From: a virus
Strand: one strand, 5' to 3'
DNA length: 39,394 nucleotides
Virus record (IMG/VR): IMGVR_UViG_3300030328_001830
Location: 1 to 39,394 of that record
The position numbers and the translations under genes are program-made. Shown piece by piece: positions 855 to 39,394 of the stretch. The notes beneath the pieces were generated by a model. The model saw nothing but the letters and a program-made list of their open reading frames with translations. It was not told the DNA's origin and did not search any database. Numbering within the stretch: the stretch's first letter is position 1; every line of letters begins with the position of its first letter.

Positions 855-902
855 AAAACCCCTATGTTATAAATTATCAAAAATAATGTTGCAATTAGTA
901 TT

Positions 903-923: not shown

Positions 924-956
924 CAATGGTAATAGACAAATGACAAAGGAGAGTGT

Positions 957-1655: not shown

Positions 1656-1677
1656 TATTAGCGATAAGTTATAATAC

Positions 1678-1707: not shown

Positions 1708-1715
1708 AGTCTTAT

Positions 1716-2591
1716 ATGACGAATCAACCTAAGATTTTAGGCGATTGCTATAAGAAATTTGGCTTGGCACATACCAGTAAGAGTCAAAACACAATACCTG
1801 ACGATATTAGATTAAGAAATTACATTTTAATAACAAAAAAACAAAAAGCTAACCTACCTACTAATTGTTCATTTACTGGTGGAACTATAAGCCATGAAGT
1901 TATTCAATCTGTTAAATGTAGCAACAAATCGTTTGGCGATGCTTTTAAATTAGTTAAAGATAAAATAACTAATTATGAGCCGGTAGATGAAAAAGATAAA
2001 ATTAAATTTAATTACATTATTGAGAATCTAGAGCCTTTAGTTCAAAACCACTTAGATAATATTAAAGAAGTACCTAACCAAGAATGGAAAGCAGAACTTG
2101 AATATACACATTGGGACTCAGAAAAAATAAAAACATATTTTTTAGCTTATGTTGACCTAGTTGGTGAAACACATTTTGGCGATATTAAAAATGTATTTGG
2201 CACATTAACCAAAACTAAAAAAGGTTACAGTTATTCAAAAAGGAAATGCCCACAAGTTCCATTTCATAGTGACTGCCTACAAATTGCACTATACCAAAAA
2301 CTGCTGCCAAAACATAAACCATTTCTAACTTATGCTAGTGATAGTGATAGAATTATTTTTACACCTGAGAACTGTGTAGAGCTTAGACCTGAAAACCTAC
2401 AATATTATTATGATGAACTTATTCTTTATCAAAGATGTTGGGAAAAGAAATTAGAACTAGCTGATGGCGATATTAAAACTTTAGCACTTTTGGTCAAACC
2501 TGACTTTAGTGAAATACGAAAAAATGGATTCTGGTGGAAAGGGATAGATCCAGAAATAATAAAAAGCTTTAGGGATTTGTATGAACTTTAA
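1716..2591 (+). CDS. PD-(D/E)XK exonuclease, RecB/Cas4-like
   Basis: A 291-residue nuclease with the motifs of the RecB/Cas4 exonuclease superfamily in order: GGTISH (55-60, His60), acidic residues around AELEY (126-130), the core D147 in AYVDLVG, D156-I-K158 in GDIKNV, and QIALYQ (Q189-x3-Y193). It probably degrades double-stranded DNA ends to give single strands for the annealing protein encoded two genes downstream, as in lambda Red-type pairs. There is no ribosome-binding site before the ATG, and a promoter is predicted to start almost at it, so the transcript may be leaderless. The end overlaps the next gene by 11 bases. Confidence 0.8.
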   Translation: MTNQPKILGDCYKKFGLAHTSKSQNTIPDDIRLRNYILITKKQKANLPTNCSFTGGTISHEVIQSVKCSNKSFGDAFKLVKDKITNYEPVDEKDKIKFNYIIENLEPLVQNHLDNIKEVPNQEWKAELEYTHWDSEKIKTYFLAYVDLVGETHFGDIKNVFGTLTKTKKGYSYSKRKCPQVPFHSDCLQIALYQKLLPKHKPFLTYASDSDRIIFTPENCVELRPENLQYYYDELILYQRCWEKKLELADGDIKTLALLVKPDFSEIRKNGFWWKGIDPEIIKSFRDLYEL

Positions 2592-2799
2592 ACAATTGGT
2601 TAAGCATTATGAAACTTTGGAAAAAAAAGATTTGATTCAAAAAATTGTAGATAAAAATTCATTAATTTTAAAACAAGAAGATGAGATTGAAAGATTAAAT
2701 AAAGAAGTAAATCAAATTAAAGAACTTGAACAAGATCACAAACAAATAAATGGCAACTTACACACAGAACTAAACAAATTGAGAGAGGCTAAACAATGA
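2581..2799 (+). CDS. Small coiled-coil protein
   Basis: A 72-residue, highly charged protein with a long predicted coiled coil (about residues 20-70, for example EDEIERLNKEVNQIK and LHTELNKLREAKQ). It begins inside the end of the exonuclease gene with AGGGA upstream, and its TGA overlaps the ATG of the annealing-protein gene (ATGA). Sandwiched between an exonuclease and a putative recombinase, it may be an accessory or oligomerisation factor. No family is recognised. Confidence 0.7.
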   Translation: MNFKQLVKHYETLEKKDLIQKIVDKNSLILKQEDEIERLNKEVNQIKELEQDHKQINGNLHTELNKLREAKQ

Positions 2800-3470
2800 A
2801 AACAAAATCTTTAATTGATGCAATAGATCAATTTAGAAAAAATATTGAAGATAACGATTATGTTAAACTAGGTGCTAAAGGTAAATACCTTACTGTACCT
2901 TACAGATTAAAATTTGTTAGGGAGTATTTTGGGGAAAGAATTAGAATTATTACTGATAGCTTTGACCTGGATAATGGCTCTCATAAATTTAAAACAGAAA
3001 TTTATTTAGATGACAAGATAGTTGCTACTGGTTTGTCTAAGCAGATGTTTAACAAGGACAAAGAGTTTGAAAAGCAATCGACTGTTAGTTGTGGAAGAGC
3101 ATTAAGTTTTTTAGGATTCTTTGGCGATGAGTTAGCGACTGCTGAGGAAATGGAACAATTTCTTAAACCACCAGTTAATGTAACTAAAGTTGAAACTAAA
3201 AGTGCAACACCAACAGAAAAACCAATTACAAAAAATGTTAAGCAAATGGCAGATGATTGGATTAAGCAAATGACTGATGTTGCTAAACACTCAAAATCAC
3301 AAAACAATTTTGAAAAAAATTTAACTCCATTTAGAGAAGATTATAAATCAGATTTAATATTTATATCTGGTGATTTAATTCAATCGGAAAGAGTTGATAA
3401 CACATACAACAAACTAAAATCACAAATACAAAATAATCAAATAAATAGGAGTGCTAATAATGGCAGATAA
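2796..3470 (+). CDS. Putative single-strand annealing protein (Erf/Sak-like)
   Basis: A 224-residue protein. The first ~125 residues carry VPYRLKFVREYFG, a beta-strand section with IYLDDKIVATG, then STVSCGRALSFLGFFG. This resembles the TSAxGRALxxLG signature seen in Erf/Sak-type annealing proteins. The C-terminal half is low-complexity and polar, as is common in this group. Directly following an exonuclease, it would anneal single strands during phage recombination. The assignment rests on motif resemblance and context; a single-stranded-DNA binding protein is an alternative. It overlaps the next start by a few bases. Confidence 0.55.
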   Translation: MKTKSLIDAIDQFRKNIEDNDYVKLGAKGKYLTVPYRLKFVREYFGERIRIITDSFDLDNGSHKFKTEIYLDDKIVATGLSKQMFNKDKEFEKQSTVSCGRALSFLGFFGDELATAEEMEQFLKPPVNVTKVETKSATPTEKPITKNVKQMADDWIKQMTDVAKHSKSQNNFEKNLTPFREDYKSDLIFISGDLIQSERVDNTYNKLKSQIQNNQINRSANNGR

Positions 3471-3684
3471 TAATTACGATAATTCTGGTGCTATGTGGAA
3501 AAGACAAAGTAGAGATACAGATGTTGCTGGAAAAAAATATCCTCAGTATGAGGGTAACATTACAGTTGGTGGAACTAAAAAGAAAGTTGCAGCATGGCTT
3601 AATGTTGAAAAAACAAAAGATACCCAACCAGATATATCCTTAAAAATTAGCGATATGGTCAGCAAGGAAAGTACACCCTTTTAA
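3460..3684 (+). CDS. Small DUF736-like protein
   Basis: A 74-residue protein starting MADNNYDNSGAMWKR. I chose the ATG at 3460 because AGGAG lies eight bases before it; an upstream GTG would add three residues. The pattern (MWK near the N-terminus, PQYEGNITVGG, KKKVAAWLNVEK, DISLKISDM) resembles small DUF736-type phage proteins and suggests a compact beta-barrel. Being beside recombination genes it may bind single-stranded DNA, but that is inference. Its TAA overlaps the next ATG. Confidence 0.65.
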   Translation: MADNNYDNSGAMWKRQSRDTDVAGKKYPQYEGNITVGGTKKKVAAWLNVEKTKDTQPDISLKISDMVSKESTPF

Positions 3685-3977
3685 TGAAAGACCAAATTAA
3701 TCCAGACCACTATAAAAAAAGTATTGAAACTTTTGACGCAATCTCATCTCAACTTTCACCAATGGAAATCATTGGTGGGTTGAGGTGGCAAATTTTAAAA
3801 TACACAATGAGGTTTGGTGCTAAAGAAAATGGCTCTATTGGAGCTTGTATAACCGATATTAGCAAAGCCGAATGGTACACAAATAAATTAATCCAATATT
3901 TAAACGACCTTAAAAAAGAGGGATTGTTTATTGGTGAGCCTGACAATGTTGCTGAATTATTCAAGGATAAGAAATGA
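3684..3977 (+). CDS. DUF3310 family protein
   Basis: A 97-residue protein with the DUF3310 signature: NPDHYKKSIETFDAI at the N-terminus, LKYTMRFGAKENG in place of the usual KYxxRxxxKN, and ISKAEWYTNKLIQYL in place of DLKKAxWYLxxLI. DUF3310 proteins are frequent in phage early regions and sometimes labelled nucleotide-kinase-like; their function is unproven. It is tightly coupled on both sides, TAATG at the start and ATGA at the end. Confidence 0.8.
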   Translation: MKDQINPDHYKKSIETFDAISSQLSPMEIIGGLRWQILKYTMRFGAKENGSIGACITDISKAEWYTNKLIQYLNDLKKEGLFIGEPDNVAELFKDKK

Positions 3978-4267
3978 AAAATGGAAATGGGCATATATAT
4001 TTAAGCCAAATAAAATTAGATGTTTTAAAATATATAAAATATTTTATTCAGCAGTACGATTATTCACCAACCTATAAAGAGATTGGCCACAAGTTTAAGT
4101 TCTCAAGAGCTAGAGCCGGTGCAATCATAGCAGAATTATTTAAGTTAAATTTAATAAGTAAAGGTGAACAAGCACACCGAAATATAGAATTAAGCGATAA
4201 TCAAATTAGTAAAATTTCCATGCTTAAAGTTAATAAAAGTTATTCAACAATGGAGTTTAGAAAATGA
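3974..4267 (+). CDS. LexA-type winged-helix DNA-binding protein
   Basis: A 97-residue protein in which residues 9-65 match the LexA N-terminal DNA-binding fold: LSQIKLDVLKYIKYFIQ, DYSPTYKEIGHKFKFS, then a recognition helix RARAGAIIAELFKLNLI and a wing. It has no S24 protease domain, so it would not self-cleave. It may regulate the early operon or sense the host SOS response by competing for operators. It starts and ends with ATGA overlaps. Confidence 0.7.
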   Translation: MKNGNGHIYLSQIKLDVLKYIKYFIQQYDYSPTYKEIGHKFKFSRARAGAIIAELFKLNLISKGEQAHRNIELSDNQISKISMLKVNKSYSTMEFRK

Positions 4268-4512
4268 CAAAAGTTTTAAAAGAAAGTTTTTATGAAGCAA
4301 GTTTTAAAGTTAATGAAGAATTTGATAATGCAGAAATAGCTGCACAATCAGATAAGCCAAGTGAAATGGCTAAATTAGATGTTTTGGATATTAAGTTTTC
4401 AAAATCCAAAATAACATTAAAACCAAAGGAGCAATATGGATCCAAAGAAAATATTGGAACTCAAGCTACAGCAAGAAAGGACAGCTCAAAAGATGCACAA
4501 GCACAAAAGTAA
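4264..4512 (+). CDS. Small acidic/polar protein of unknown function
   Basis: An 82-residue protein with an N-terminal helical part (VLKESFYEASFKVNEEFD) and a low-complexity, probably disordered tail rich in K, S, Q and A. No family is recognised. It overlaps the preceding gene by ATGA, and the next short gene begins inside it in another frame. Confidence 0.6.
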   Translation: MTKVLKESFYEASFKVNEEFDNAEIAAQSDKPSEMAKLDVLDIKFSKSKITLKPKEQYGSKENIGTQATARKDSSKDAQAQK

Positions 4513-4600
4513 TTTTGAGAAATGTAAAAATAAGATTGCTGTAATCAGTTCTAAAATTTTTGAAGAGGAGTCAAAGAGAGAGTTTAGAATACACTCTTAA
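4436..4600 (+). CDS. Small charged helical protein (54 aa)
   Basis: A 54-codon reading frame (MDPKKILELKLQQERTAQKM...) beginning within the preceding gene, with AAAGGAG four bases before the ATG. The product is strongly helical and charged, with one cysteine. The good ribosome-binding site and the lack of any other gene downstream to 4678 support it. Function unknown. Confidence 0.55.
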   Translation: MDPKKILELKLQQERTAQKMHKHKSNFEKCKNKIAVISSKIFEEESKREFRIHS

Positions 4601-4626
4601 TTGATTTTTTACACTAATACTAGAAG

Positions 4627-4656
4627 TTGAAATAAACTTAATAGGGATCATATGCT
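4627..4656 (+). promoter_or_regulatory. Candidate promoter for the XRE regulator
   Basis: A TTGAAA (4627-4632) and TATGCT (4651-4656) pair, 18 bases apart, lies in the 77-base gap before the XRE gene. It would allow this regulator to be transcribed separately from the operon. Confidence 0.35.
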
Positions 4657-4677
4657 TAAAAAAAAGGAGAGAAAGTA

Positions 4678-5079
4678 ATGCGAAAAAGACCATACAAAGC
4701 TTATAAAAAATCCGATGAGGAAACTTTATTAAATAAAGCCATTGGTAAAAAAATTAAAGAAGCAAGACAAAATAGAATTATTTTTATTGATGTGCCTGAA
4801 GTTAAAAATGTTACAACTGCACATACAATTAAAAGGCAAAAAATTTGTACCCAAACAGAATTATCTAAAGCAGTTGGAGTTACTTTTCAACAAATCCAAA
4901 AATATGAGAGAGGTCAAAATGGAGTTAGTTCAACAAAGCTATTAAAGATAAGCAGATTTTTTAACAAGCCACTTGATTATTTTACAAGTGCTGCAAACGA
5001 TTTATTAGGTCAAGGTAATCTACCTGGTAGAAGCTCAGATGTAATTTTAGCTCCCTCTAATGTTGCTGAGTTAAATTAA
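4678..5079 (+). CDS. XRE/Cro-CI family transcription regulator
   Basis: A 133-residue protein with an HTH_3 domain: helix 1 at about residues 16-32 (LNKAIGKKIKEARQ), then the turn and recognition helices TQTELSKAVGVTFQQIQKYERG (61-82) and a typical close KLLKISRFFNKPLDYF (90-105). About 25 extra residues (IIFIDVPEVKNVTTAHTIKR) split the first helix from the rest, which is unusual. The C-terminus is short and polar, with no protease or oligomerisation domain. It has a strong AAGGAGAG leader and its own gap upstream. It is a candidate lysogeny/lysis control protein. Confidence 0.8.
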   Translation: MRKRPYKAYKKSDEETLLNKAIGKKIKEARQNRIIFIDVPEVKNVTTAHTIKRQKICTQTELSKAVGVTFQQIQKYERGQNGVSSTKLLKISRFFNKPLDYFTSAANDLLGQGNLPGRSSDVILAPSNVAELN

Positions 5080-5150
5080 AATGATTATCAATAAATGTGA
5101 AACACTTATAAGAGATTTGTAACCTCTTATATTTTATTTGTTGTGTATAG

Positions 5151-5177
5151 GGGGAGGAGCAATCCTCCCCTTTTTTT
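5151..5177 (+). terminator. Strong rho-independent terminator
   Basis: A perfect 8-bp stem GGGGAGGA / TCCTCCCC with a GCAA tetraloop, directly followed by seven T. It ends the rightward operon about 70 bases after the XRE gene. A weaker hairpin with arms ATAAGAG (5108-5114) and CTCTTAT (5124-5130) precedes it. Confidence 0.9.
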
Positions 5178-5348
5178 ATGTATTTTGTAATTTGGAAACC
5201 TAAAGATAAATTTACTAGCTTTACCAATAGTATATTTTCTTTAGAAAAAGATGCTAGGGAGTTTGCTAGAAAAAGTATTAAACGAAAAATTGAATGGGAT
5301 GTAGTTCTCTATAATAGTGAGAACTACGATAAGTATTGGTATAAATAA
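5178..5348 (+). CDS. Small protein directly behind a terminator (56 aa)
   Basis: A 56-codon frame (MYFVIWKPKDKFTSFTNSIF...NYDKYWYK) whose ATG touches the T-tract of the terminator at 5151-5177. There is no separate ribosome-binding site; the only GGAGG lies inside the terminator hairpin 20 bases upstream. It ends one base before the convergent minus-strand gene. The aromatic-rich, well-formed product argues that it is real. Expression would need read-through or an unseen start. Confidence 0.5.
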   Translation: MYFVIWKPKDKFTSFTNSIFSLEKDAREFARKSIKRKIEWDVVLYNSENYDKYWYK

Positions 5349-5513
5349 TTATTGTTTTTTTATATGTACTTCGGCATCTTTTTTATTAACAAAGAATTTT
5401 TTAGTAAATAATTCATTATTAACATTTTTTATAAATGTTTCTAATTCATATTTTTTAATTCTTTTACTGCCATGATTAACTCTATAAATAAATAATTTAT
5501 TTTTTATTGTCAT
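5349..5513 (-). CDS. Small basic protein downstream of integrase
   Basis: A 54-residue lysine-rich protein (MTIKNKLFIYRVNHGSKRIKK...). The ATG at 5513 is chosen because the leader AAGGAGAGAGAAAATG precedes it, the same 16 bases that lead the first gene of this operon at 7663. It lies 11 bases after the integrase stop and ends one base from the convergent gene. Size and charge would fit a recombination-directionality factor, but no excisionase motif is evident. Confidence 0.6.
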   Translation of the reverse strand: MTIKNKLFIYRVNHGSKRIKKYELETFIKNVNNELFTKKFFVNKKDAEVHIKKQ

Positions 5514-5524
5514 TTTCTCTCTCC

Positions 5525-6673
5525 TTATTTCCAATTAAAGTGTTGATTTTGATAATCTATATGTTGGTCTGCATCAGCATTATTTTTATAAAGCTTAATG
5601 TAGTTCTCATTAACAAAGTTAATATCCTTATCACCTAGATCCCTTGCTAATAACAAAGCATTCTCTTTATGCTTTTTAGTATATGCCCAATAGGTAGCCA
5701 TATAGTGCCTAAAGAAGTACGACTTTCTTGGTATGGGTAGTTGCACCTTATTCTTGGCTAACGCACCCTCTAAACCCCTTATAATTTGTTCTACGCATAT
5801 AAATTTACCTTTGCTATTAAGAAACAAATAATCTTGGTGGTCTGGCAAGGTATTAACATGGTCGTTAATTAAGTCTTTTAACTTAGTAGATATAACTAAA
5901 GTTCTAACCCCATTGTCAGTTTTAGTTACACCAATGTTCTTACCTTTTTTAACTGCCTTATCTATACTAATGCTTGGAATGTTAGCTTTAAATAATAAAC
6001 TCTTTTTATTTAATGCTCTTATCTCACTAGGTCTACAAGCAGTTTCCAACATGATTTTACACATCAGTTTTATTATAGGTCTATTAATATCTTCAATAAT
6101 ACCCATAACCCTATCCATAGGCCAAACATCAAAATCTATAGTCTTTTTGACCTTTTTAGGCACTATAACTGTTTTTAAAAAATCCTTGTCTTTGCATACA
6201 TTTTTATTCAATTTATCAATATCTACTTGATGTTGTAGCAAAAGACTTAGGGTATTGAACACTTTTCTAACAGTATTAGCACTAATTTGTTTAGCTTTTA
6301 TCTTACCTTTTAGGTGTTCCACAAAGTCATTAACCTTATGTTTATCAATTAACCTTATATCTACATTGGTAAAATAAGGAATTATGTGGTTAATAAAAAA
6401 GCTAATATAATCATCCTTTGTACTCTTATCTAATTTACCTACACTAATTTTATAATCTTGGTGTTGGCAAAAATCTATATTAGCTTCTCTTAAAAATATT
6501 TGTGAGGAAGATGTTTTTTCTAAACCTATTTCTTTTACTTTCTCTTTAGCCAAAACCTCTACTGCACTCTTGGTCTTAGCAGAAATAAATTTAACTTGAC
6601 CATCTAAACCAAAGTATCTCCATCGCCAAATTTTTTTACCATTTTTAACTGTATCTTTAATTGCTAGTTCCAT
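5525..6673 (-). CDS. int: Tyrosine recombinase (phage integrase)
   Basis: A 382-residue integrase. Residues 1-50 resemble an arm-binding domain (KIWRWRYFGLDGQVKFISAKTKSA), 60-160 the SAM-like core-binding domain (DFVEHLKGKIKAKQISANTVRKVF), and 180-375 the catalytic domain. Catalytic candidates are R214 (ETACRPSEIRAL), K251 (VTKTDNGVRTLV), R322 in FFRHYMATY and Y358 in ENYIKLY. The usual histidine of HxxR is Y319, and the LGH position reads LGD (D348). It would recombine attP at 7932-7974 with a host tRNA-Thr gene. It is the fourth gene of the operon starting at 7663, joined to the previous gene by TAATG. Confidence 0.93.
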   Translation of the reverse strand: MELAIKDTVKNGKKIWRWRYFGLDGQVKFISAKTKSAVEVLAKEKVKEIGLEKTSSSQIFLREANIDFCQHQDYKISVGKLDKSTKDDYISFFINHIIPYFTNVDIRLIDKHKVNDFVEHLKGKIKAKQISANTVRKVFNTLSLLLQHQVDIDKLNKNVCKDKDFLKTVIVPKKVKKTIDFDVWPMDRVMGIIEDINRPIIKLMCKIMLETACRPSEIRALNKKSLLFKANIPSISIDKAVKKGKNIGVTKTDNGVRTLVISTKLKDLINDHVNTLPDHQDYLFLNSKGKFICVEQIIRGLEGALAKNKVQLPIPRKSYFFRHYMATYWAYTKKHKENALLLARDLGDKDINFVNENYIKLYKNNADADQHIDYQNQHFNWK

Positions 6674-29728: not shown

Positions 29729-30214
29729 CTAACTTTTTTTGTTAGAATTTTTTCTGTAATTTATTATAGAAAATTTATTTAGATTTGCATTTTTACCAAA
29801 TATCATAATACACATTGGCAACCACAAACCTCTTTTTTCATTATTAAAATTTACTTCACCATTAATAAATCTTATTTCAGCATTAAGTGAAACTTCTGCC
29901 CACCATTTAGTATTACTTCTAACTGGTATAAGACAAACTTTAGTTGTTAATTTATTTTTATTATATGTTTCGTAATATGCTTTTTTAACCCATTTAGATA
30001 AATCTCTTGAAAAAGGTGGATTCATCCAACAATTTTCATTCCAACTTTTATTTAAAGCATTTTCTTCCTTTGTCCAATATCTGGGTAATTTAAAATTATT
30101 TTTACTAGCACAAACATCAAAAGTTAAATTAAATTCTTTAATTAATGGATTAACTATTTTTAAAGGTGTACTATATTCAATGCTTTTACTTACACCAACT
30201 ATATTAGTTCCCAT
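29729..30214 (-). CDS. Phage N6-adenine DNA methyltransferase (Dam-type, PF05869-like)
   Basis: A 161-residue methyltransferase with the order known for phage DNA N-6-adenine methyltransferases: EYSTPLKIVNPLIKEFNLTF (13-32), DVCAS (33-37), the catalytic NPPF (65-68, WMNPPFSRDLSKWV) and a strand VCLIPVRSNTKWW. It would use S-adenosylmethionine to methylate adenine in phage DNA and block host restriction. It is inserted between portal and scaffold genes, an unusual place; the gene ends in the 47-base gap before the scaffold. Confidence 0.85.
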   Translation of the reverse strand: MGTNIVGVSKSIEYSTPLKIVNPLIKEFNLTFDVCASKNNFKLPRYWTKEENALNKSWNENCWMNPPFSRDLSKWVKKAYYETYNKNKLTTKVCLIPVRSNTKWWAEVSLNAEIRFINGEVNFNNEKRGLWLPMCIMIFGKNANLNKFSIINYRKNSNKKS

Positions 30215-30507: not shown

Positions 30508-32641
30508 ATAAAGCTTTTACCTGATCTTGTACCATTTGTGATTGCCTACTAGCTTCTCTAAAATCTTTTGTCGATTCTGCGACTAACATTTTATTTAAAT
30601 CAGCATCAGCTTTTATTTGTTGTGAATCTATTTGAGTATTATATTTCAACTCAAGTTCTTTCATTTTAATTTCGTTTTCTAAAAGAATTTCTGCATTGTC
30701 AGATTTAATTTTTTTCAATTCAAGTTCTAACTCAGCAACTTTTCGTTTTTCTTCACTTGCTATTCTAGTAAATTCTATTTTTTCAATTGGCGATGGCTCT
30801 GGTGGTGGTGGAGGTGTAACCATACCTTTACCCATGTCAGGATTTACAAAGTAATTCTCAACATTTTTTAAACCAGCATTTTCAATAATTTTAGCCAAAC
30901 TATTGTAAATGTTTTTTAAGCTAACCATAGGGTATTCCCTATTACCCTGTAATTGAAAGGCTTGTAACTGTCTTTCTAGAATATTGTTAAGCATCATAAT
31001 CTGTTGTTCTTTAGAGCCACTACCTAGACCGACTGCAATAGAGATATTGTATCTATTTCGCCACTCAGTAGGTTTGACTGGTATGAACTGATTATTAAGT
31101 TCTACAATTCTTTCTTTGTCTTGATACTTACAAGTAAGTTCAAAAATTCTTTTAAATAAATCTTTAATTCCTGTTTCAGCAAACACTCTAGCAATCAACT
31201 CCATACGCATTTGCGATTGAGTCATTATTGCATTAACACCAGTTGCAGTTTTGTTTAAACTATCTGCATCTAAGCCTTGATTATATCTTGTAACCCCAGT
31301 TCTAGTTTCCCTAACAGTATCTAAGTATTCTAATAATGGAAATGCTTGTTGCGATATAGTTTGTGATTGCATCGGCAACATAACTTGGCTTGGTGGTTGT
31401 TTAGTTCTAACTACCCCACCAGGTCTTGATGTTAATAGGTCATCCAAGTTGACCATGCCATCCATTATGGCTACTCTGTTGTTGTTAGTTAAATACATAT
31501 TGTCTAGCAACTGACGCATTACAGTTGATTTAACTAATTGCACATCTTCAACTAACTCTGAAACTGATCTGCCATAAAATCTGTGTGGCATTGGTATTGG
31601 TGTTAAACTACAAAAAGGAATAGCATCGCAACTTTCGTTGGCCAATATTGTATAGCCACCAGCACCGGCAACACAAACTTTTCTAAGTTCAGCAATCCCA
31701 TCACCATCCATATCTACTTTCATGTAGCACTCATAAATTTCTATTTCTTGAGTAGCTTCATCAGGTGAATTGTTAAATGGGTTTTCGTCTATATCGCTAT
31801 ACCTAGTTAATCTTTCATCATTTAAAATAATATTATTTGATGTAGGTAAATTTTCAACAACATCTCTATCAAAACCCATCTTAATAAGATCGGATCTAGT
31901 TTTTAAAACTCTATGTGCAACAAAATCTGCATCCTCAATTGATTTTGCAGTTCGTTGTATTAAAAATTCTTCTGGTGGAACATTTTCTATTTTAACTCTA
32001 CCACCTTTTGATGTTCTTTTAATAATGCAGTTGTGCAGCATTGGAGTTGGCTCTTCTTCTACCAACTGGCCTTGCTTAGTTGCTTCAACTAATAATAAAT
32101 CCATAGCTGCTTTCATCTTTTCATCAACAAAAGATTCCTCTTCAACTATTTCAACATTTTCATCATCAAGTAATAACTGGTATTCTTGATCGTTTAAATT
32201 TTTATAAGTTTCTTGTTCTATATCAATAGACTCATCCCAATAAACTTTTACAATTCCATTTTTTTCAATTAAAGCATCTTTAAACCAAGTATATAAAACA
32301 CTAAAACCATTATTATCTTTATTAAAGATATAATTAATATAATTAGTAGCTTGTTCGGCTAAAGGTACATCCTCTGATTTTACAGGCTCACATTTAACCA
32401 CTTGGTCACTAGCTGTAAAAATTCTAAGTAAATTAGGTAAAATAGTTTCAATAGTGTCAGCTACATCGGTTGATACAACTTGCGATCTGCCATCTATTTC
32501 AGTTCCTAATTTTTCACCTAAATAATATTCAACTGATTTTTTTCTTTGAGAAGTTAAATTACCCCCCATAAAACCAATTGCATTATTTATCTCAGAGTTA
32601 ATAATACTTCTTAATTCTATATCTGTTACTTTATCTGCCAT
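30449..32641 (-). CDS. Portal protein
   Basis: A 730-residue portal. The opening resembles marine short-tailed phage portals (NNAIGFMGGNLTSQRKKSVEYYLG, VVSTDVADTIETILPNLLRIF), with a central body (CDAIPFCSLTPIPMPHRFYGRS, LVKSTVMRQLLDNMYLTNNN, TGVTRYNQGLDADSLNKTATG) and a long C-terminal coiled coil or barrel after a proline run (PPPPPEPSPIEKIEF). Twelve copies would form the DNA entry ring. It lies two bases after the terminase stop. Confidence 0.88.
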   Translation of the reverse strand: MADKVTDIELRSIINSEINNAIGFMGGNLTSQRKKSVEYYLGEKLGTEIDGRSQVVSTDVADTIETILPNLLRIFTASDQVVKCEPVKSEDVPLAEQATNYINYIFNKDNNGFSVLYTWFKDALIEKNGIVKVYWDESIDIEQETYKNLNDQEYQLLLDDENVEIVEEESFVDEKMKAAMDLLLVEATKQGQLVEEEPTPMLHNCIIKRTSKGGRVKIENVPPEEFLIQRTAKSIEDADFVAHRVLKTRSDLIKMGFDRDVVENLPTSNNIILNDERLTRYSDIDENPFNNSPDEATQEIEIYECYMKVDMDGDGIAELRKVCVAGAGGYTILANESCDAIPFCSLTPIPMPHRFYGRSVSELVEDVQLVKSTVMRQLLDNMYLTNNNRVAIMDGMVNLDDLLTSRPGGVVRTKQPPSQVMLPMQSQTISQQAFPLLEYLDTVRETRTGVTRYNQGLDADSLNKTATGVNAIMTQSQMRMELIARVFAETGIKDLFKRIFELTCKYQDKERIVELNNQFIPVKPTEWRNRYNISIAVGLGSGSKEQQIMMLNNILERQLQAFQLQGNREYPMVSLKNIYNSLAKIIENAGLKNVENYFVNPDMGKGMVTPPPPPEPSPIEKIEFTRIASEEKRKVAELELELKKIKSDNAEILLENEIKMKELELKYNTQIDSQQIKADADLNKMLVAESTKDFREASRQSQMVQDQVKALYEQEPTGQTPTGSEPIEQS

Positions 32642-32642
32642 A

Positions 32643-33911
32643 TTAAACTATATAATTTGTGTTGATTGGAACTTGTTTTTTCCAATTTGAAATTTCAGCA
32701 CCTTGTCCAATTATGCCAGTCCTAAAAGCATCAGCACAATGGGATGCAAAATTGTGCATCGGTTTATTTTTAAAGCATTGGTTTTTATCATCCCATCTTT
32801 TTTGATAAGCTTTTAAATACTCAATTCCTGTTTTGCATTTTTCTTTATCAAACCAGCAATTAGTTAATGCTTTTCGTACTGCCTCAATTCCATCTTCAAT
32901 AGATAGTTTTGGAGCTACTTCAAAATTAATACCAAGCTCTAACGCACTTTCTAATCTTGATTTACCCATATTACCAAGTTCTCTAACTTTAATATCATGG
33001 GGTGCTATGTGTTTAGAATACTCATAACCTTTTTGATCTAAAACTTCTGCATAATGATCTAAGCCATAACCACTATTTTCATAATGGTCTATTAATCTTA
33101 TTTCACCTTTATACCTTTGGGCAAACCATATTGCAGTTGAATCGTTAAGACCTAAATCCCACCAAGTCTCTACATCCAGGTTATCATCGTAAGGTACATC
33201 AGCAATCTTACCTTCTTTTGCCAGACCCTCTATAATAGATCCGAAATAACTGCCGGTTATGGCAGCTTGAAAACTACACTCAAATTCTTGGTCATACAAA
33301 TCATTAGACATGATAGCTTTTGCAGCTTCAAGTTCATCATTGTCTAAAATTTTAGTATCACTAGCTTTAAATACACAAGCATACCAATCTTTAGTTTCTA
33401 GTGCTTGGTTATATAATTCAAAAAAATAATTACGACCTTTTGGTGTACCTATAAATACACACCAACCTTTTCTATCTGCCAGAGCTGGTCTTATTACCTC
33501 TGGAAATATAGTTGGCTTTATGGCTTGTGTTTCATCGAAAACGCAACCATCTAAAAATATACCTCTTAGTGCTTGATCGTTCTCAGCACCTAATATTGTA
33601 ATCCTTGCACCATTAGGTAAATCGCACCTAAGCTCAGATTCGTTGAATTTCGTACCAGGAATTTTACCGGCATAGGTTTTTATGTAATCCCATGCTGTCG
33701 CCTTTCCTTGTTTGAATGTGGGCGAAAGAAACGCATATCTGGGGTTAGGCAAGGGATTAGTCAAAGCTGCTTTTAGCATATGATTAATCGTCATGACTGT
33801 TTTCCCAGCTCTTCGGTGTAAAACCAAAACACTAAATCGATGTTTATCGATTTTCTTGTGCAAAAAATTCTGTAATTCTCTTGGCTTGTATGGAATGACT
33901 ATGTTTGCCAT
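32643..33911 (-). CDS. terL: Terminase large subunit
   Basis: A 422-residue packaging motor. ATPase: Walker A LHRRAGKT (31-38), Walker B LDGCVFDE (120-127) and coupling motif FIGTPKG (153-159). RNase-H-like nuclease: Asp252 (WWDLGLND), Asp305 (IAPHD) and Asp393 (SHCADAFR). It cuts concatemeric DNA and pumps it through the portal. It follows the small-subunit region and precedes the portal gene by one base. Confidence 0.93.
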   Translation of the reverse strand: MANIVIPYKPRELQNFLHKKIDKHRFSVLVLHRRAGKTVMTINHMLKAALTNPLPNPRYAFLSPTFKQGKATAWDYIKTYAGKIPGTKFNESELRCDLPNGARITILGAENDQALRGIFLDGCVFDETQAIKPTIFPEVIRPALADRKGWCVFIGTPKGRNYFFELYNQALETKDWYACVFKASDTKILDNDELEAAKAIMSNDLYDQEFECSFQAAITGSYFGSIIEGLAKEGKIADVPYDDNLDVETWWDLGLNDSTAIWFAQRYKGEIRLIDHYENSGYGLDHYAEVLDQKGYEYSKHIAPHDIKVRELGNMGKSRLESALELGINFEVAPKLSIEDGIEAVRKALTNCWFDKEKCKTGIEYLKAYQKRWDDKNQCFKNKPMHNFASHCADAFRTGIIGQGAEISNWKKQVPINTNYIV

Positions 33912-33929
33912 TTTAAAACAAAACCCCCC

Positions 33930-34121
33930 TTAGTGTACTGTTACACCTCTGGGTACATTTAATAATTGTTCTATGCCTAAATCATTCATGATGTGATGGC
34001 TAAAATATTTGCACTCAGTTAAATCGTTAAAACCTCCAAAGTGTACTACAACACTATTAGTAGATTCCATTATGTAGATAACTGCTGAATATCCTTGTTT
34101 GCCATCTTCGTAATCGAACAT
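33930..34121 (-). CDS. Small protein upstream of terminase
   Basis: A 63-residue protein (SVVVHFGGFNDLTECKYFSHHIMNDLGI). The VHFGGFxxxxEAxxFxxxIxxxLGI shape recurs in short phage proteins. AAGGG precedes the ATG at 34121. Function unknown; it probably belongs to the packaging block. Confidence 0.55.
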   Translation of the reverse strand: MFDYEDGKQGYSAVIYIMESTNSVVVHFGGFNDLTECKYFSHHIMNDLGIEQLLNVPRGVTVH

Positions 34122-34298
34122 ATTAAAAACCCTTGTTTATTTGTGTGTACCACCCCTAATTTTTTTTATAGTTCCCAATATAGCCTGATGGGTGGCTTCG
34201 CTTCAAAACCCCCCAAATCCTGTGTTTTAATCTGAAAACTGACTAATAATCACTTGCTTTGGTTTATTTACCTTGAAAATTAATAATTTTATGTTGCC

Positions 34299-34316
34299 GG
34301 TATAAAATTGGTATAA
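34299..34316 (+). repeat. Third GGTATAR pair, 11-base spacing
   Basis: GGTATAA at 34299-34305 and 34310-34316 are separated by AATT, the same 11-base spacing as the two pairs flanking attP. It lies in a non-coding gap far from attP. Confidence 0.55.
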
Positions 34317-34339
34317 ATTTATTAATTTTTTGTTTGTAC

Positions 34340-34356
34340 TTTAGAATAATTCTAAA
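34340..34356. promoter_or_regulatory. Palindrome in terminase gap
   Basis: TTTAGAAT and ATTCTAAA are perfect 8-base arms around a single A. It may be a protein binding site or a transcript hairpin. Confidence 0.45.
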
Positions 34357-34460
34357 ACATTTAGTGAACATTTGTCCTATAAATACTTCTGTGCTAGTTT
34401 TATCTGATGCTCTGAACATTTTAAACAAAACATAGCAATTACAATACTTTTACCAATAAC

Positions 34461-34880
34461 TTACTTATCCCACTTAACAACTAATGGAGTATTTTTATCG
34501 AAATTTAATGTAGTTGCATCCTTTTTAGCATAATATTTGGGTTGAATCCGTTCACTTTTCCATTTACTTAAATCTACAAATGACTTGATGAGATGAGTCT
34601 GACCTAAGTCAGTCTTTTCTTTTGTTTTACTATTAGCAATACTTTCGTTTAATAAATCAGTAGCTGCACTAAGTACAAATTCCATGCTATCCATCTTAGC
34701 CTCTTCATAAGCTAGTCGTAAATTATTATCCTTTTTCATCCATGTTCTAAAGGTTTCCCAACATGGTCTATCTGGATCCTTGTTTTGTGGTGAAAGTACA
34801 GCTCTAAGTGATTTACCTTGTGCTAATTCTTCTAGCATTTCTTTAATCACTTTATCATTTTTCTTAGTCTTATTGGCCAT
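34461..34880 (-). CDS. terS: Terminase small subunit
   Basis: A 139-residue protein. The N-terminal DNA-binding part reads GKSLRAVLSPQNKDPDRPCWETFRTWMKKDNNLRLAYEEAKMD, the usual G-x-SLR ... P..T...W...D...R..YEEA pattern of phage small terminases, followed by a helical part and KWKSERIQPKYYAKKD near the C-terminus. It recognises the packaging site and recruits the large subunit, which lies about 550 bases downstream. No clear ribosome-binding site. Confidence 0.8.
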   Translation of the reverse strand: MANKTKKNDKVIKEMLEELAQGKSLRAVLSPQNKDPDRPCWETFRTWMKKDNNLRLAYEEAKMDSMEFVLSAATDLLNESIANSKTKEKTDLGQTHLIKSFVDLSKWKSERIQPKYYAKKDATTLNFDKNTPLVVKWDK

Positions 34881-34902
34881 TTTATTTACTTATTTGTGGT
34901 TG

Positions 34903-34954
34903 TAATATTGTTAGCGATAGTGTTAATATTGTTATCAACCGATTCTAACGAATC
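34903..34954 (+). promoter_or_regulatory. Control region of the plus-strand small gene
   Basis: TAATATTGTTA occurs at 34903-34913 and 34924-34934, 21 bases (two helical turns) apart, followed by the inverted repeat GATTC-TAAC-GAATC (34941-34954). It separates the minus-strand terminase gene from a plus-strand gene, so it may carry operators for either direction. Confidence 0.45.
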
Positions 34955-34968
34955 AAAAGGAGAGAAAT

Positions 34969-35127
34969 ATGTTTAATAAATCTAAAACTTTAACAACTCC
35001 AATTGTTATGTTTAAGTTTCCTATTGTTAAATACTACAGGAATAAAGATAAGTTCCAATCAGCATTAAAGAATAGGAAGATGTTAAAAAAGCTTAAAATA
35101 AAAGACTTTAAGCCAATTGAACAGTAA
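34969..35127 (+). CDS. Isolated plus-strand small basic protein (52 aa)
   Basis: A 52-codon frame (MFNKSKTLTTPIVMFKFPIV...) with AAGGAG six bases before the ATG, the same AAGGAGAG leader used by early and integrase-operon genes. It is the only plus-strand gene within the leftward late region. The product is basic (RNKDKFQ, KNRKMLKKLKIKDF), so it may bind nucleic acid or a host protein. Its control region carries phased repeats and it is followed by a large hairpin. Confidence 0.65.
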   Translation: MFNKSKTLTTPIVMFKFPIVKYYRNKDKFQSALKNRKMLKKLKIKDFKPIEQ

Positions 35128-35138
35128 TTGTTCATAAG

Positions 35139-35195
35139 GGGGTAGCAAGTTTGAGAGAGAGAAAGAAAGAAAGGTTTGCTACCCCATCATATGAT
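35139..35195. other. 10-bp hairpin with purine-only loop, plus palindrome
   Basis: GGGGTAGCAA (35139-35148) pairs with TTGCTACCCC (35176-35185); the 27-base loop is mostly A and G (GAGAGAGAGAAAGAAAGAAAGG). A perfect palindrome ATCATATGAT (35186-35195) follows. No T-tract on either side. It may stabilise the small plus-strand transcript, form a regulatory RNA or mark a DNA site. Confidence 0.6.
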
Positions 35196-35281
35196 TCAAA
35201 CTAAAAAAAAGGTTTTAAAAAAAAACACTTCAATTAAGTATAAAGTTTTTCTTTAACTTATTTGATAACTTGTCAAATCTT

Positions 35282-35695
35282 TTACAAATATTTTTTTAAA
35301 TTCTTGTTTGCTACTTCACAAGCTTCTACCAAAGCTCTAAAATACATATATCTTATTTTTTCATGTGACCAATCTAAGTAGAATCTTTTAAGTTGTCTGT
35401 AGGATCTGTAGGGAAAGTGTCTAAGGTAAATTAGTTCTCTTTTATCAGCTTTAACATCCAACATAAGCATAGTTACAAAATCATATATAGATAATTGTCT
35501 GGAAGTCGGAATTATTCTTGGTCTAGCAGTAGATGGTGCCGAATCTTTATAAGTATCCTTATCTGGTGATACATCTAACAGTTCAAAGTTAGTAGTACAT
35601 CTTGGTTTTTTAAGTCCAGGTAATTTATTATCCACAAATGCTGCTATGGATAAAAATCTATCTAATTGGTCGGTAGTCAGTCTAACTGTTATCAT
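35282..35695 (-). CDS. Putative late regulator, DUF6362-like / sigma-region-4-like helix-turn-helix
   Basis: A 137-residue protein. Its C-terminal half contains ADKRELIYLRHFPYRSYRQLKRF, then YLDWSHEKIRYMYFRALVEACEV, resembling a sigma region 4 or DUF6362 helix-turn-helix. The middle (ARPRIIPTSRQLSIYD) fits the linker of that family. It is encoded just upstream of the terminase genes, where phages often place late-gene activators. It overlaps the previous gene by 14 bases. Confidence 0.6.
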   Translation of the reverse strand: MITVRLTTDQLDRFLSIAAFVDNKLPGLKKPRCTTNFELLDVSPDKDTYKDSAPSTARPRIIPTSRQLSIYDFVTMLMLDVKADKRELIYLRHFPYRSYRQLKRFYLDWSHEKIRYMYFRALVEACEVANKNLKKYL

Positions 35696-35888
35696 TTTGT
35701 TTATACAATTGGTCTAAATATTGGTTAAATCTATCCTTTGATAAGGATTTCTGTAATTGTTTGGTTTTTTTGTTTTGGTCATGTGCTTTTCTGTTCTTAA
35801 TTCTACTATCCTTAGCTTTTTTGTAATAAAAGTTAGTATTTTTAACCATATTACCTATTATTTTTTTAATCTTATCTTTTTGCTCCAT
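35682..35888 (-). CDS. Small lysine-rich protein
   Basis: A 68-residue basic helical protein (KIKKIIGNMVKNTNFYYKKA, KKTKQLQKSLSKDRFNQYL). No motif is recognised. It precedes the putative regulator and overlaps it. The region upstream holds two sets of direct repeats rather than a clear ribosome-binding site. Confidence 0.55.
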   Translation of the reverse strand: MEQKDKIKKIIGNMVKNTNFYYKKAKDSRIKNRKAHDQNKKTKQLQKSLSKDRFNQYLDQLYKQNDNS

Positions 35889-35894
35889 ATATAT

Positions 35895-35962
35895 TATTTT
35901 CTATTAAGTATTTTCTATTTAAGACCTACAAAAATTAACCCCCATGACCTACAAAAATTAAC
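35895..35962. repeat. Direct repeats next to HTH gene (iteron-like)
   Basis: A 17-base unit GACCTACAAAAATTAAC occurs at 35923-35939 and 35946-35962 (period 23). Just to its left TATTTTCTATT occurs at 35895-35905 and 35909-35919 (period 14). The area is AT-rich and abuts the stop of a winged-helix gene, so it may be an origin or operator. Confidence 0.6.
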
Positions 35963-36369
35963 TACCGAACTTTTGGATTTATGGTGATAACTGTACCCCT
36001 GTTAATTTCTTGTGATAACTTTTTGTTGTGTATTTTTTGTTTAATGCTTTCGCTAATTCTTCGTCTTTTACCATTATTCATACGAATAATTTCTTGCATC
36101 TTATTCCTATCAAATGTGTAGTTGTTAGCTTTGTTTCGTTTAGGTTGGTGTCTAGCAACTAGGCCAAACAATGTTAAATTGTCTAAATACTTTCTAAGTG
36201 TAGCCTCAGATTTAATGCCAGTTCTACGCATTAAATATTTATTAGACACATTTACACCATTTTTGCAGTTATGGAATCTTCTTATTAGGATATACAATAG
36301 CTTTTCATGGCTATTCAAATTTAGGTTGTCTAGCAAATCAATATCTACCTTTTCAAAAGTCCAACTCAA
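35962..36369 (-). CDS. Winged-helix replication-initiator-like protein
   Basis: A 135-residue protein. Residues ~17-95 form a HTH_36-like winged helix: LNSHEKLLYILIRRFHNCKNGVNVSNKYLMRRTGIKSEATLRKYLDNLTLFGLV in pieces, as in the N-terminal domains of phage replication proteins and plasmid initiators. The tail is basic. The start appears to be a TTG overlapping the TGA of the MT-A70 gene (TTGA). No other replication gene is visible in the phage, so it is the best candidate to direct host replication proteins to the repeats just downstream. Confidence 0.6.
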   Translation of the reverse strand: MSWTFEKVDIDLLDNLNLNSHEKLLYILIRRFHNCKNGVNVSNKYLMRRTGIKSEATLRKYLDNLTLFGLVARHQPKRNKANNYTFDRNKMQEIIRMNNGKRRRISESIKQKIHNKKLSQEINRGTVITINPKVR

Positions 36370-36974
36370 AGTCTTAACTCCTTGTTTTCGGCAGTCGGTT
36401 TAAATTTGTCTGTTTGATTACCCCAAATATCCCAACCTGGTGTAACAGTTCTGCTAAACATTTCTAATCTTGGTAAATCCCCACAAAGCTGTACGATTTT
36501 TTCCCTAATGCAATCAGGCTTTCTACTATGCTCTCTTATTGGCTCATAAATTACCTGGTGTATGCCTTTATCTAATCTTTTGGGTTTGCCTTTAGTACCT
36601 AATAAACAAATTTCTGCGTTACTCCTTGTCCAACCACCCATTCCCCAAAAACTATCAAATGAGTCTACTGGAAAAAATGATGATTGCTTAACATCAGTTC
36701 TTTTATTAGTTTTAATCCATACAAAAGCACAAGTTTTTAGTTCAAAACCCCAAGACTTAATTACATCTAAACCCTCTTGCAGTAATGGGAAAGTTGCCCA
36801 CATAAATAAAATGCTATCATCTGCTGTAATATCTTTTACTGGTATTGAACAAATATCCTCAATTGGCATTACAGGATAGTGCTGCACCTTAGCTCTTTGT
36901 GGTAACTTACCATTGTAAGACCAAGCTGGATCAGCATAAATAATATTGTATTTTTTATTAGGCAACTCAATCAT
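36366..36974 (-). CDS. MT-A70 family adenine N6-methyltransferase
   Basis: A 202-residue methyltransferase. The catalytic DPAW (residues 15-18, NIIYADPAWSYNG) is the DPPW motif of MT-A70 enzymes; also present are ILFMWATFPLLQEGLDVIKSWGFE, a central WxK section and REHSRKPDCIREKIVQLCGD near the end, all typical. Probably methylates adenine in phage DNA. The ATG at 36974 is preferred over an upstream GTG; it overlaps the end of the zinc-finger gene by 8 bases. Confidence 0.87.
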   Translation of the reverse strand: MIELPNKKYNIIYADPAWSYNGKLPQRAKVQHYPVMPIEDICSIPVKDITADDSILFMWATFPLLQEGLDVIKSWGFELKTCAFVWIKTNKRTDVKQSSFFPVDSFDSFWGMGGWTRSNAEICLLGTKGKPKRLDKGIHQVIYEPIREHSRKPDCIREKIVQLCGDLPRLEMFSRTVTPGWDIWGNQTDKFKPTAENKELRL

Positions 36975-37134
36975 CCTCACCACCTTTACCTAATTCTTCT
37001 AATGGTATTTGTAATATTTCAGATGAGTAATGGTCTGGGCAATAGTGTTTATTGTTTTCTGTTAATACTGCGTTAGCTTCACAGTCTTTAATGCAACACT
37101 TCTTTGCCGGATCACCATACATATTTAGTTCCAT
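36967..37134 (-). CDS. Small zinc-finger-like protein (55 aa)
   Basis: A 55-codon frame. It has a cysteine cluster KKCCIKDC (Cys13, Cys14, Cys18) and HYCPDHY (Cys32, His35), a likely zinc site, then an acidic tail. Either ATG at 37134 or the one four codons later (MYGDPAKK) could be the start. It is packed between two methyltransferase genes and may be a partner of them. Confidence 0.65.
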   Translation of the reverse strand: MELNMYGDPAKKCCIKDCEANAVLTENNKHYCPDHYSSEILQIPLEELGKGGEDD

Positions 37135-37156: not shown

Positions 37157-37645
37157 TTATTTTATTAGACACTCTTTTTCCTTTTCTTTCATTTCAACTG
37201 TTGCGATTGTGTCATTGTGTTGGCCACCATGAGCAACTAAAACAATTTTCGTTATTTTAAATCCATATTTTTCTCCAATACCCCCACTATTCCAACCAAA
37301 AGAAATAACTTTGCCATTACTTTTAATTATTCTTGAAATTTCTTTTTTACAATTTGTCCAATAAGAAGCATTCATTGGATGGTCAAAAGCTAAACCATTA
37401 TTAGAATACATTTCTTTTAATTGTCTTTGAGAATATGGTGGATCAAAAACTAAAAAATTTTCTGAATTATCAGGTATAGTTTTTAAATAATTAATAGCAT
37501 CTTGTTTATAAGGAAAAGGAAATGGATCTATATAATTATCCCCTAATTCAAATTTTATTAGTTCTGCAAAAGGTTTAATTGTAAAAGTTTTGTGAGATGG
37601 CATAGACCAAAATCTTTTAAATTCAATTTTATTTTTTAATTCCAT
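37157..37645 (-). CDS. DPPY-type DNA methyltransferase-like protein
   Basis: A 162-residue protein with the catalytic DPPY (residues 68-71, FLVFDPPYSQRQ), preceded by a motif-I-like NYIDPFPFPY (37-46) and followed by GKVISFGWNSGGIGEKYGFK and VLVAHGGQHNDTIATVEMK. This layout matches small phage adenine-type methyltransferases; the glycine-rich SAM loop is reduced. It overlaps the PD-(D/E)XK-like gene by 10 bases, suggesting a functional pair. Confidence 0.75.
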   Translation of the reverse strand: MELKNKIEFKRFWSMPSHKTFTIKPFAELIKFELGDNYIDPFPFPYKQDAINYLKTIPDNSENFLVFDPPYSQRQLKEMYSNNGLAFDHPMNASYWTNCKKEISRIIKSNGKVISFGWNSGGIGEKYGFKITKIVLVAHGGQHNDTIATVEMKEKEKECLIK

Positions 37646-38145
37646 GCTCCATCTTTCAAAAATTTAATTGGTGTAAGTTTATCTAAACTTAGTGAATGAA
37701 CTTTTGGTCTGTCAGTAATACCAAAGTCTGTTAAATATTTTTCAGTACCTAAAACATAACTGCTATTAACAAAGCCATGAATTTCGTAAGTCGGACTTTT
37801 ATCAATAACTAATACATAGATTTCCCCAGCTTTACTGCCTTTAGGTCTTATTATTAAACTATTATGTTTTTTAGGTAGTTGGGATCTAACTTGTAAGTGA
37901 ACATCATGCCAAATAATATCTGGATTAGCACCATGATTTACATGAAAGTTAAAAGAAGTATCTAGGTAACGACAAACTGCAAGTTCTGCACAAGCACCAC
38001 TTATTGATTTTGCTATTTGGTCATTAACACTACCTTTATAGTTATGACCCCAATCTTGTTTTAATCTTAATGACTCAAAAACCCTAAGCAACCCAGTTTG
38101 TGAAGCTGCCATTATATCGTATAAATCTAATTTAACTTCTATCAT
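37636..38145 (-). CDS. PD-(D/E)XK-like protein of unknown function
   Basis: A 169-residue protein. ISGACAELAVCRYL, then GANPDIIWHDVHLQVRSQ and SLIIRPKG ... IYVLVIDKSP give the layout of the restriction-endonuclease fold (Glu, Asp, Q-x-R), with Arg where the catalytic Lys would stand. Similar phage proteins with ALGE-x-AVAKYL ... QVRTR are common but uncharacterised. The ATG at 38145 is preferred over an upstream TTG. A partial second copy is at 1-110. Activity is uncertain. Confidence 0.65.
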   Translation of the reverse strand: MIEVKLDLYDIMAASQTGLLRVFESLRLKQDWGHNYKGSVNDQIAKSISGACAELAVCRYLDTSFNFHVNHGANPDIIWHDVHLQVRSQLPKKHNSLIIRPKGSKAGEIYVLVIDKSPTYEIHGFVNSSYVLGTEKYLTDFGITDRPKVHSLSLDKLTPIKFLKDGAWN

Positions 38146-38147
38146 AA
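38036..38147. repeat. Right-end copy of terminal homology A
   Basis: Matches 1-112 with about one mismatch; covers the start of the PD-(D/E)XK-like gene. Beyond 38147 the sequence is unrelated to that after 112. Confidence 0.95.
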
Positions 38148-38378
38148 TCAATCTGGTATTTTTTCTAAATGTGGATGGTGTAATTTAATTTTTTCGTACT
38201 CTCTTTCTGACAGTTCAGGATTTAATTTTTCACAAAATGCCAAGATTAAACTTCTCATTTCAGAGTTGTTTAACAAATCAAATCCTGCCATTTCAAAAAT
38301 TTGGTTGTATTCTTTAGGGGTAAAATTAATTTCCTCTAAATCATTTAGTTTTTGTTTTATCTTTTCATATTTTTTCAT
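38148..38378 (-). CDS. Small acidic helical protein of the cassette
   Basis: A 76-residue charged helical protein (MKKYEKIKQKLNDLEEINF...). The ATG at 38378 is fixed by GGAG six bases upstream; a longer frame from 38408 is not supported. It is present only in the right-end allele, between the PAPS-reductase-like gene and the PD-(D/E)XK-like gene. Function unknown. Confidence 0.7.
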   Translation of the reverse strand: MKKYEKIKQKLNDLEEINFTPKEYNQIFEMAGFDLLNNSEMRSLILAFCEKLNPELSEREYEKIKLHHPHLEKIPD

Positions 38379-38379
38379 A

Positions 38380-39180
38380 TTAAACTCCACACATACCCTC
38401 ACATTCATTGTTAAATAAATCTAGTTGATCTGTTTTTTCGTTAAAATCTATTTCGCCAATTGGCTTTTTACTGTTATGTAAAAATAATTCTTCATCCTTA
38501 TTTTTTGACTTATTTCTTATAAAATTATCTAATTTTACAACTTCATCCCATTCTTGTTTGTTTTCTTTTACTAATTTCCATTCATCATTGTTATGAAATG
38601 GACAAAATGTACAAGCTGATCTTGGAGGTTTTGGATAATTATTTTTTTCCATCCATTCAATACAATGTATTCTTCTAAAATCTTTTTCAACTAATGGATA
38701 AACATTTGTAATATATTTTTTTGGATTTATTTTCATTCGGAAAGTTTCTTCTTTTGATATGCCCATTAACATTTCAACATGAGCATCTTTTTTAATTCTT
38801 TCGCCTTTTTGTAATCCTAAAAGTTCTCTTACTTTTTTATTTACAGGAATTATTTTATAATGATTTGTGCATTGTCGTCTTGATAAACCAGCTTTACCAG
38901 TAATTTTATTTTTTGTATAAACTGGTATTAATGAAAACTGATGGTAATCAGTAAGCATTTGTATAGTATCTTTTTTTAAATCACCTTTTTTAACAATATA
39001 AACTGGATATGATAATTTTGTTTGTAACCATTTTAACCAATTATAAACAGCTTTAGGCTCACTCATAGTATCTGAAAATATTGCAGCATCTACCATAGGA
39101 ACTTCACCTTTTTCAATCATGAGAGCTAAAGTAGAACTTTGAACACCAGCACCTAAACTTAATATTCTTAATTTTTTCAT
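38380..39180 (-). CDS. PAPS-reductase-like PP-loop protein
   Basis: A 266-residue protein of the adenine-nucleotide alpha-hydrolase/PAPS-reductase superfamily. The PP-loop variant SLGAGVQSS is at residues 8-16. Four cysteines lie at 104 (RRQCTNHYKI), 173 (HCIEW), 190 and 193 (SACTFCPFHNNDEW) and could hold an Fe-S cluster. Many phages carry this family; a role in sulphur assimilation or DNA/tRNA thiolation has been suggested but not shown. It starts at the ATG overlapping the TGA of the secreted-protein gene (ATGA). It lies beside methyltransferase genes and is missing from the left-end allele. Confidence 0.83.
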   Translation of the reverse strand: MKKLRILSLGAGVQSSTLALMIEKGEVPMVDAAIFSDTMSEPKAVYNWLKWLQTKLSYPVYIVKKGDLKKDTIQMLTDYHQFSLIPVYTKNKITGKAGLSRRQCTNHYKIIPVNKKVRELLGLQKGERIKKDAHVEMLMGISKEETFRMKINPKKYITNVYPLVEKDFRRIHCIEWMEKNNYPKPPRSACTFCPFHNNDEWKLVKENKQEWDEVVKLDNFIRNKSKNKDEELFLHNSKKPIGEIDFNEKTDQLDLFNNECEGMCGV

Positions 39181-39394
39181 AATAAATAATTTCCATCTTG
39201 GTCTAGGCAATAGTGAGCTGCTATGCCTTTTTTATTGTAAATATAAAAACCCCAAAGCTGACCATTTCCATCTTCAAATTTAGGGTTGTCATACCAGGTA
39301 GCTTTACTTTCAAATGCTTCATCGCAATTAGTAAAATTTTTGATATTTATTTTTTCGTAAAGCAAACCTTGTGATGTCATTAAAACTAAAATTA
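39177..39394 (-). CDS. Small secreted protein, second allele, partial
   Basis: Same protein as 307-537, about 95% identical in DNA. The frame is still open at the right edge, so only the first five residues of its signal-like N-terminus are cut off. An internal ATG at 39380 is not the true start, judging from the complete copy. Its TGA overlaps the ATG of the PAPS-reductase-like gene. Confidence 0.8.
   Translation of the reverse strand, partial: ILVLMTSQGLLYEKINIKNFTNCDEAFESKATWYDNPKFEDGNGQLWGFYIYNKKGIAAHYCLDQDGNYLL
39179..39394. repeat. Right-end copy of terminal homology B
   Basis: Corresponds to 309-524 at about 95% identity and runs to the last base. Together with 38036-38147 it flanks the alternative cassette. 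Confidence 0.93.

Follow-up and report, generated by a model that had tools for sequence, protein, structure and literature searches.

An exchangeable gene slot represented by two alleles at the ends of one marine phage contig, and the modular operon around it

The two ends of the IMG/VR virus record IMGVR_UViG_3300030328_001830 (39,394 bases, the whole stretch being referred to below as the window) share sequence with each other and enclose different genes, which raises the question of whether they are two places in one genome or two versions of a single place. A repeat search gave two direct-repeat pairs, 1-112 with 38036-38147 at 99% identity and 299-524 with 39169-39394 at 94%. An earlier, sequence-only reading had described 1-112 as equal to 38036-38147 and 309-524 as equal to 39179-39394; the pairs are real, but base-by-base comparison showed that they are not equal, with 1 mismatch (position 78) in the former and 11 in the latter, none of these within 461-524, although that reading had itself allowed for 5% divergence. 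The unshared stretch between the repeats measured 196 bases at the left end and 1,031 bases at the right, in agreement with the approximately 196 bases for one small membrane-protein gene and 1,030 bases for a PAPS-reductase-like and a 76-residue gene that had been reported. A chance origin of the repeats was ruled out by hundreds of bases at 94-99% identity and by the same order in many independent contigs. The exact runs at the contig ends were also considered as a k-mer signature, and since their lengths (77 and 64 bases) do not agree on any single k they were given no weight.

On the minus strand the left end reads M78-p76-DUF7220-p171, the last being cut by the contig start. The first gene of the operon encodes an M78/SprT-like small metalloprotease (534-854; Pfam PF06114, E 2e-5) and is followed by p76 (307-537), a 76-aa protein with a hydrophobic N-terminus that looks secreted, then by a DUF7220 small membrane protein of 67 aa (107-310; PF23858, E 8.5e-16), which has an ATGA overlap with both neighbours, and by the 5' end of p171 (1-110; 99% identical to 38036-38145). 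The right end, on the same strand, reads p76-PAPSR-p76b-p171-MT162-Zn55-MT-A70-Rep. Here the 3' part of p76 (39177-39394) is cut by the contig end and precedes a PAPS-reductase-like/SspD-like protein of 266 aa (PAPSR, 38380-39180; phrog_424, E 7.6e-41), p76b (38148-38378; 76 aa, of unknown family, co-travelling with PAPSR), p171 (37636-38145; 169 aa, with a predicted PD-(D/E)XK-like fold), the DNA methyltransferase MT162 (37157-37645; 162 aa; phrog_11619, E 2e-29), the small Cys-rich 55-aa Zn55 (36967-37134; position conserved in relatives), an MT-A70 adenine methyltransferase (36366-36983; PF05063, E 1.7e-26) and a replication-initiator-like HTH protein (Rep, 35962-36369; Pfam HTH_36, PHROG replication initiation). 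An NCBIfam profile search gave 0 matches above a cut-off. The position between p76 and p171 is referred to as slot A, that between p171 and Zn55 as slot B and that between Zn55 and Rep as slot C. In both slot A alleles the p76 stop codon (TGA) overlaps the start of the next gene as ATGA (310-307 and 39180-39177), and on the other side the limit of homology is 2 nt upstream of the p171 ATG, the p171 start standing two bases inside the shared block. The breakpoints are thus located at gene junctions; the earlier reading had placed them at start/stop overlaps.

The relation between the two ends was resolved by a locus (L128) on an independent IMG/VR contig, 3300009790_000085, which also supplied other loci in the comparison. 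This contig aligned in one continuous order to window 1-5350 at 98.6%, to p171 (37636-38147) at 99.2% and to 31457-37127 at 98.8%; it is about 98.7% identical to the window on both sides of slot A and holds the left allele intact, contiguous with complete copies of p76 and p171. Given that L128 runs from window position 1 into 38035 through an unbroken p171, the two ends of the window are one place on a circle. Over positions 1-524 there was a single mismatch to L128 (position 181), with none in 1-112 and none in 309-524, while the right-end p76 differed from L128 at 11 of 219 positions (95% identity), which assigns the left end to the haplotype of L128 and the right end to a different one. 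This is what the sequence-only reading had held, namely that two alleles of one exchangeable slot derive from different strains. An excess divergence like that of the right-end p76 (11/219, the mean being 2.7) also occurs elsewhere, as 362 of 10,581 windows reach that level. L128 is the only close relative (about 98.7%) that covers slot A, and the right allele was found in none equally close.

The explanation that we prefer, with a probability of roughly 0.88 for the whole of it, is that the window is the consensus genome of a population of marine phages with a distant relationship to Pelagibacter phage HTVC106P, that this genome maps as a circle of about 38.0-38.9 kb and overlaps itself at a polymorphic slot where the contig ends show two slot A alleles of co-existing strains, and that the operon is modular, M78-p76-(A)-p171-(B)-Zn55-(C)-Rep, with whole genes gained, lost and replaced between phages. 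The assembler would have stopped where at least two strains differ, each contig end having run into a different slot A allele. The unit genome amounts to 38,035 bases with one allele and to 38,870 with the other. Related genomes are near this length (38,710 bases for L130 and 36,945 for HTVC106P) and 39,394 bases exceeds the unit circle by a typical amount of terminal redundancy, as would also be expected if the record were one headful-packaged, circularly permuted molecule cut from a recombinant concatemer and carrying a different allele at each end. Such a heterozygote requires that the record stem from a single molecule (long read or fosmid), of which there is no sign, and ends placed right around the polymorphic slot fit assembly breaks and not random headful cuts, which makes this alternative very unlikely. 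A tandem duplication, in which p76 and p171 would each be present twice in the genome and enclose a different gene content each time, would agree with the presence of both copies in one record. This was rejected as hardly credible, because each of the nine long relatives (9/9) has a single p171 and because L128 has M78-p76-DUF7220-p171 once and then continues straight into the window's downstream genes; both repeat copies also run off the contig ends, as an overlap predicts. Equally hard to credit is a chimeric misjoin with the left end taken from an unrelated virus, which would account for the difference between the ends but is refuted, unless L128 itself is chimeric, by the 99.4% identity of window 1-954 to one continuous L128 stretch with a complete p171 and the continuation at 98.6% over 1-5350.

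The contents of slot A under the circular, two-strain reading were then compared among relatives. Scans of IMG/VR with p171, p76, PAPSR, p76b, DUF7220 and Rep returned approximately 290 loci, many of them from the same contigs, and slot states were counted in the 41 sequences with a readable slot, taking one locus per contig and including the window. The slot was empty in 21 and contained PAPSR in 6, DUF7220 in 5, an HNH nuclease in 5 and PAPSR together with p76b in 4. The DUF7220 gene of the left allele was found in this slot in L128, L134, L145, L146 and L167. The upstream border is constant, p76 (with relatives in about 30 contigs) standing upstream of the slot throughout the lineage. When the slot is empty, p76 and p171 mostly overlap by 4 nt (ATGA or GTGA), and gene-sized gain or loss therefore leaves the operon undisturbed, which bears out the earlier suggestion of whole-gene swapping without disturbance of the operon. 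The same gene-exact difference was seen between L009 and the right allele, which are 92% identical through p76 and PAPSR and from which p76b alone is missing in L009. The comparison of related genomes at this locus, which had been recommended earlier, thus showed alternative slot contents recurring across 41 contigs and the left allele intact in L128; the single slot that had been described is real, yet it is one part of a larger modular operon with an empty state, an HNH state and neighbouring slots.

Mapped on the p171 tree, the slot A states required 17 changes compared to a mean of 18.8 for shuffled labels (17 or fewer in 16 of 200 shuffles), which indicated that slot A content is nearly decoupled from p171 ancestry. 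Replacement has been recurrent: sequences with near-identical backbones carried unlike slots, DUF7220 versus PAPSR plus p76b at 99.2% p171 identity and PAPSR versus PAPSR plus p76b at 98.6%. Inserts also cross lineages and can be far closer to each other than the backbones are, with p76b 86% identical in L171 and DUF7220 91% identical in L167, versus only 51% and 49%, respectively, for p171. PAPSR-p76b pairs are present in unrelated phages, and in other phages PAPSR, DUF7220 and p76b pair adjacently or overlapping in all combinations. An overlapping PAPSR/DUF7220 gene pair was observed in many unrelated phage contigs (L048, L107, L116-L119, L230-L239); a functional partnership of the two proteins is possible.

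Slots B and C vary as well. Some relatives have no gene between p171 and Zn55, others a C5 methyltransferase, MT162, a second C5-like enzyme or a 2OG-Fe(II) oxygenase, singly or combined. Between Zn55 and Rep they have MT-A70, an N6/N4 methyltransferase or two of these, or enzymes of both kinds. The window and L128 differ in both slot A (right allele) and slot B despite 99.2% identity in p171; the slot B of L128 has a C5 methyltransferase in place of the window's MT162, which is absent from L128 and 96% identical at the nucleotide level to L029. Slot B follows the p171 tree somewhat more than slot A does, and slot C could be read in few contigs. The Rep135 of L257-L265 was 90-93% identical to that of the window versus 54-56% for p171, and exchange between lineages thus seems to extend to the replication-initiator gene.

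The protein between slots A and B, p171, was modelled from a 21-sequence alignment (AF2 pLDDT 90.5), whereas the single-sequence model had a pLDDT of 31 and was unusable. The model matched mostly PD-(D/E)XK enzymes (Hjc, NhoI, PvuII, I-Ssp6803I) with Z scores of at most 7.9, which possibly reflect just a common arrangement. Residues E53 and R86 are invariant, and the canonical D...(D/E)xK residues of the superfamily were not found in the p171 alignment, a Q/E-x-R standing where (D/E)xK is expected. Nuclease activity is therefore uncertain, being either doubtful or of a variant kind. A search of bacterial genome contigs gave no p171 homologues. The insert of the right allele, PAPSR, matched the PADLOC SspD profile over residues 5-253 (E 5.3e-16), a match to a family profile and not to an activity; a sequence search for relatives with solved structures gave none that was significant, and the slot neighbours p76b, p171, DUF7220 and p76 gave no PADLOC match to sspB/sspC or dndD/dndE. 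In PAPSR loci that also have a p171 homologue the two are less than 400 bases apart in 21 of 22 cases (some contigs being counted twice), but p171 is absent from 89 of 111 PAPSR loci. It was thus rejected as a general PAPSR partner and is a frequent neighbour only. Given that p171 adjoins the exchanged genes in the window lineage and PAPSR in several distant phages, it could be thought to take part either in the exchange, as a resolvase-like or homing-like promoter of swapping, or in modification, where it would supply the nicking activity of a minimal phage phosphorothioation pair formed with the SspD-like protein; we consider such a role unlikely.

The exchange of whole genes probably occurs when phages infect the same cell and recombine homologously within the conserved neighbours of the slots, selection presumably retaining those joints in which start and stop codons overlap and the operon stays translatable, and the HNH inserts may additionally move by homing. 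Given that the exchanged genes are mostly DNA-modifying enzymes, the array most likely varies the anti-restriction protection of the phage, each strain being equipped with different protections against host restriction, to judge from the family names only. The methyltransferases would shield the phage DNA against restriction, and a sulfur-based DNA modification is possible for the SspD-like protein. PAPS reductases have been assigned to phosphorothioation systems (PMC12707154) and reported from many mobile elements, with their function left open (PMC11437467).

That strains exchange genes in this manner is already known from flexible gene modules or metaviromic islands (Mizuno 2014, PMC3909814; Bellas 2020, PMC7468147), and it is well supported that the window represents a clear and well-resolved new example of this phenomenon. 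Bellas 2020 described phages whose cores are nearly identical and whose gene modules are interchangeable and shuffle independently; the modules most often contain orphan DNA methyltransferases and homing endonucleases, and assemblies stop at the flexible regions (PMC7468147). Likewise, the window lineage has a near-identical core in which whole genes are replaced or missing at set positions, a slot content nearly independent of the tree and contig ends at the site. Unlike the modules described, it was revealed by the two ends of one contig, has three slots side by side in a single operon, joined by start/stop overlaps of 4 nt, and carries PAPS-reductase-like, DUF7220, p76b or HNH genes in slot A. 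In a limited search of the literature, no paper describing this operon was found.

No close isolate was obtained by megablast, and the closest by terminase in the phage collection was HTVC106P (MN698244, 60%), which was also the only isolate found in the p171 protein search. In this phage gp07 (a C5-type methyltransferase), gp08, gp09 (of the HNH family), gp10 (a p171 homologue) and gp11 (a 2OG oxygenase) stand in a row; parts of these kinds also make up slots A and B. The cluster differs in that its p171 homologue is just 26% identical to that of the window and in that the terminase genes are on the other strand, and no match to DUF7220, PAPSR or MT-A70 was found beside it. The C5-type methyltransferase is 92% identical between HTVC106P and L017, against the 26% for p171 between HTVC106P and the window. 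Variation at the population level is also known from SAR11 phages, where pelagiphages of the HTVC010P type have a hypervariable region that was read as the result of an arms race; it lies in virion/tail genes (PMC10504331), whereas that of the window lies in an operon of mostly DNA-modifying enzymes. With regard to the SspD/DndC phosphorothioation enzymes, the right-allele protein resembles them in its profile match and differs in that no SspB/C or DndD/E partner was found among the adjoining genes, its neighbours being p76b, DUF7220 or p171.

These findings give a gene-level view of marine phages whose core remains stable while genes that are probably protective are swapped: the slots are fixed, the joints measure 4 nt, several inserts can replace one another, and inserts are common to distant phage lineages. 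Overlapping but non-identical ends of contigs recorded as linear can expose both complete circular-mapping genomes and strain polymorphism, and a systematic search for such ends is feasible. Bench work has two concrete candidates in p171, the conserved neighbour, and the SspD-like insert.

A tyrosine-integrase-like gene at 5525-6673 (phrog_1, E 5e-33) suggests that the window phage is temperate or formerly temperate. Adjoining this gene, a second small replacement relative to L128 was observed, in which 166 bases of the window (5351-5516, with a 61-aa ORF at 5349-5534) correspond to about 263 different bases. A further Dam-type DNA methyltransferase is located at 29729-30214, flanked by the portal and capsid genes within the head-gene block.
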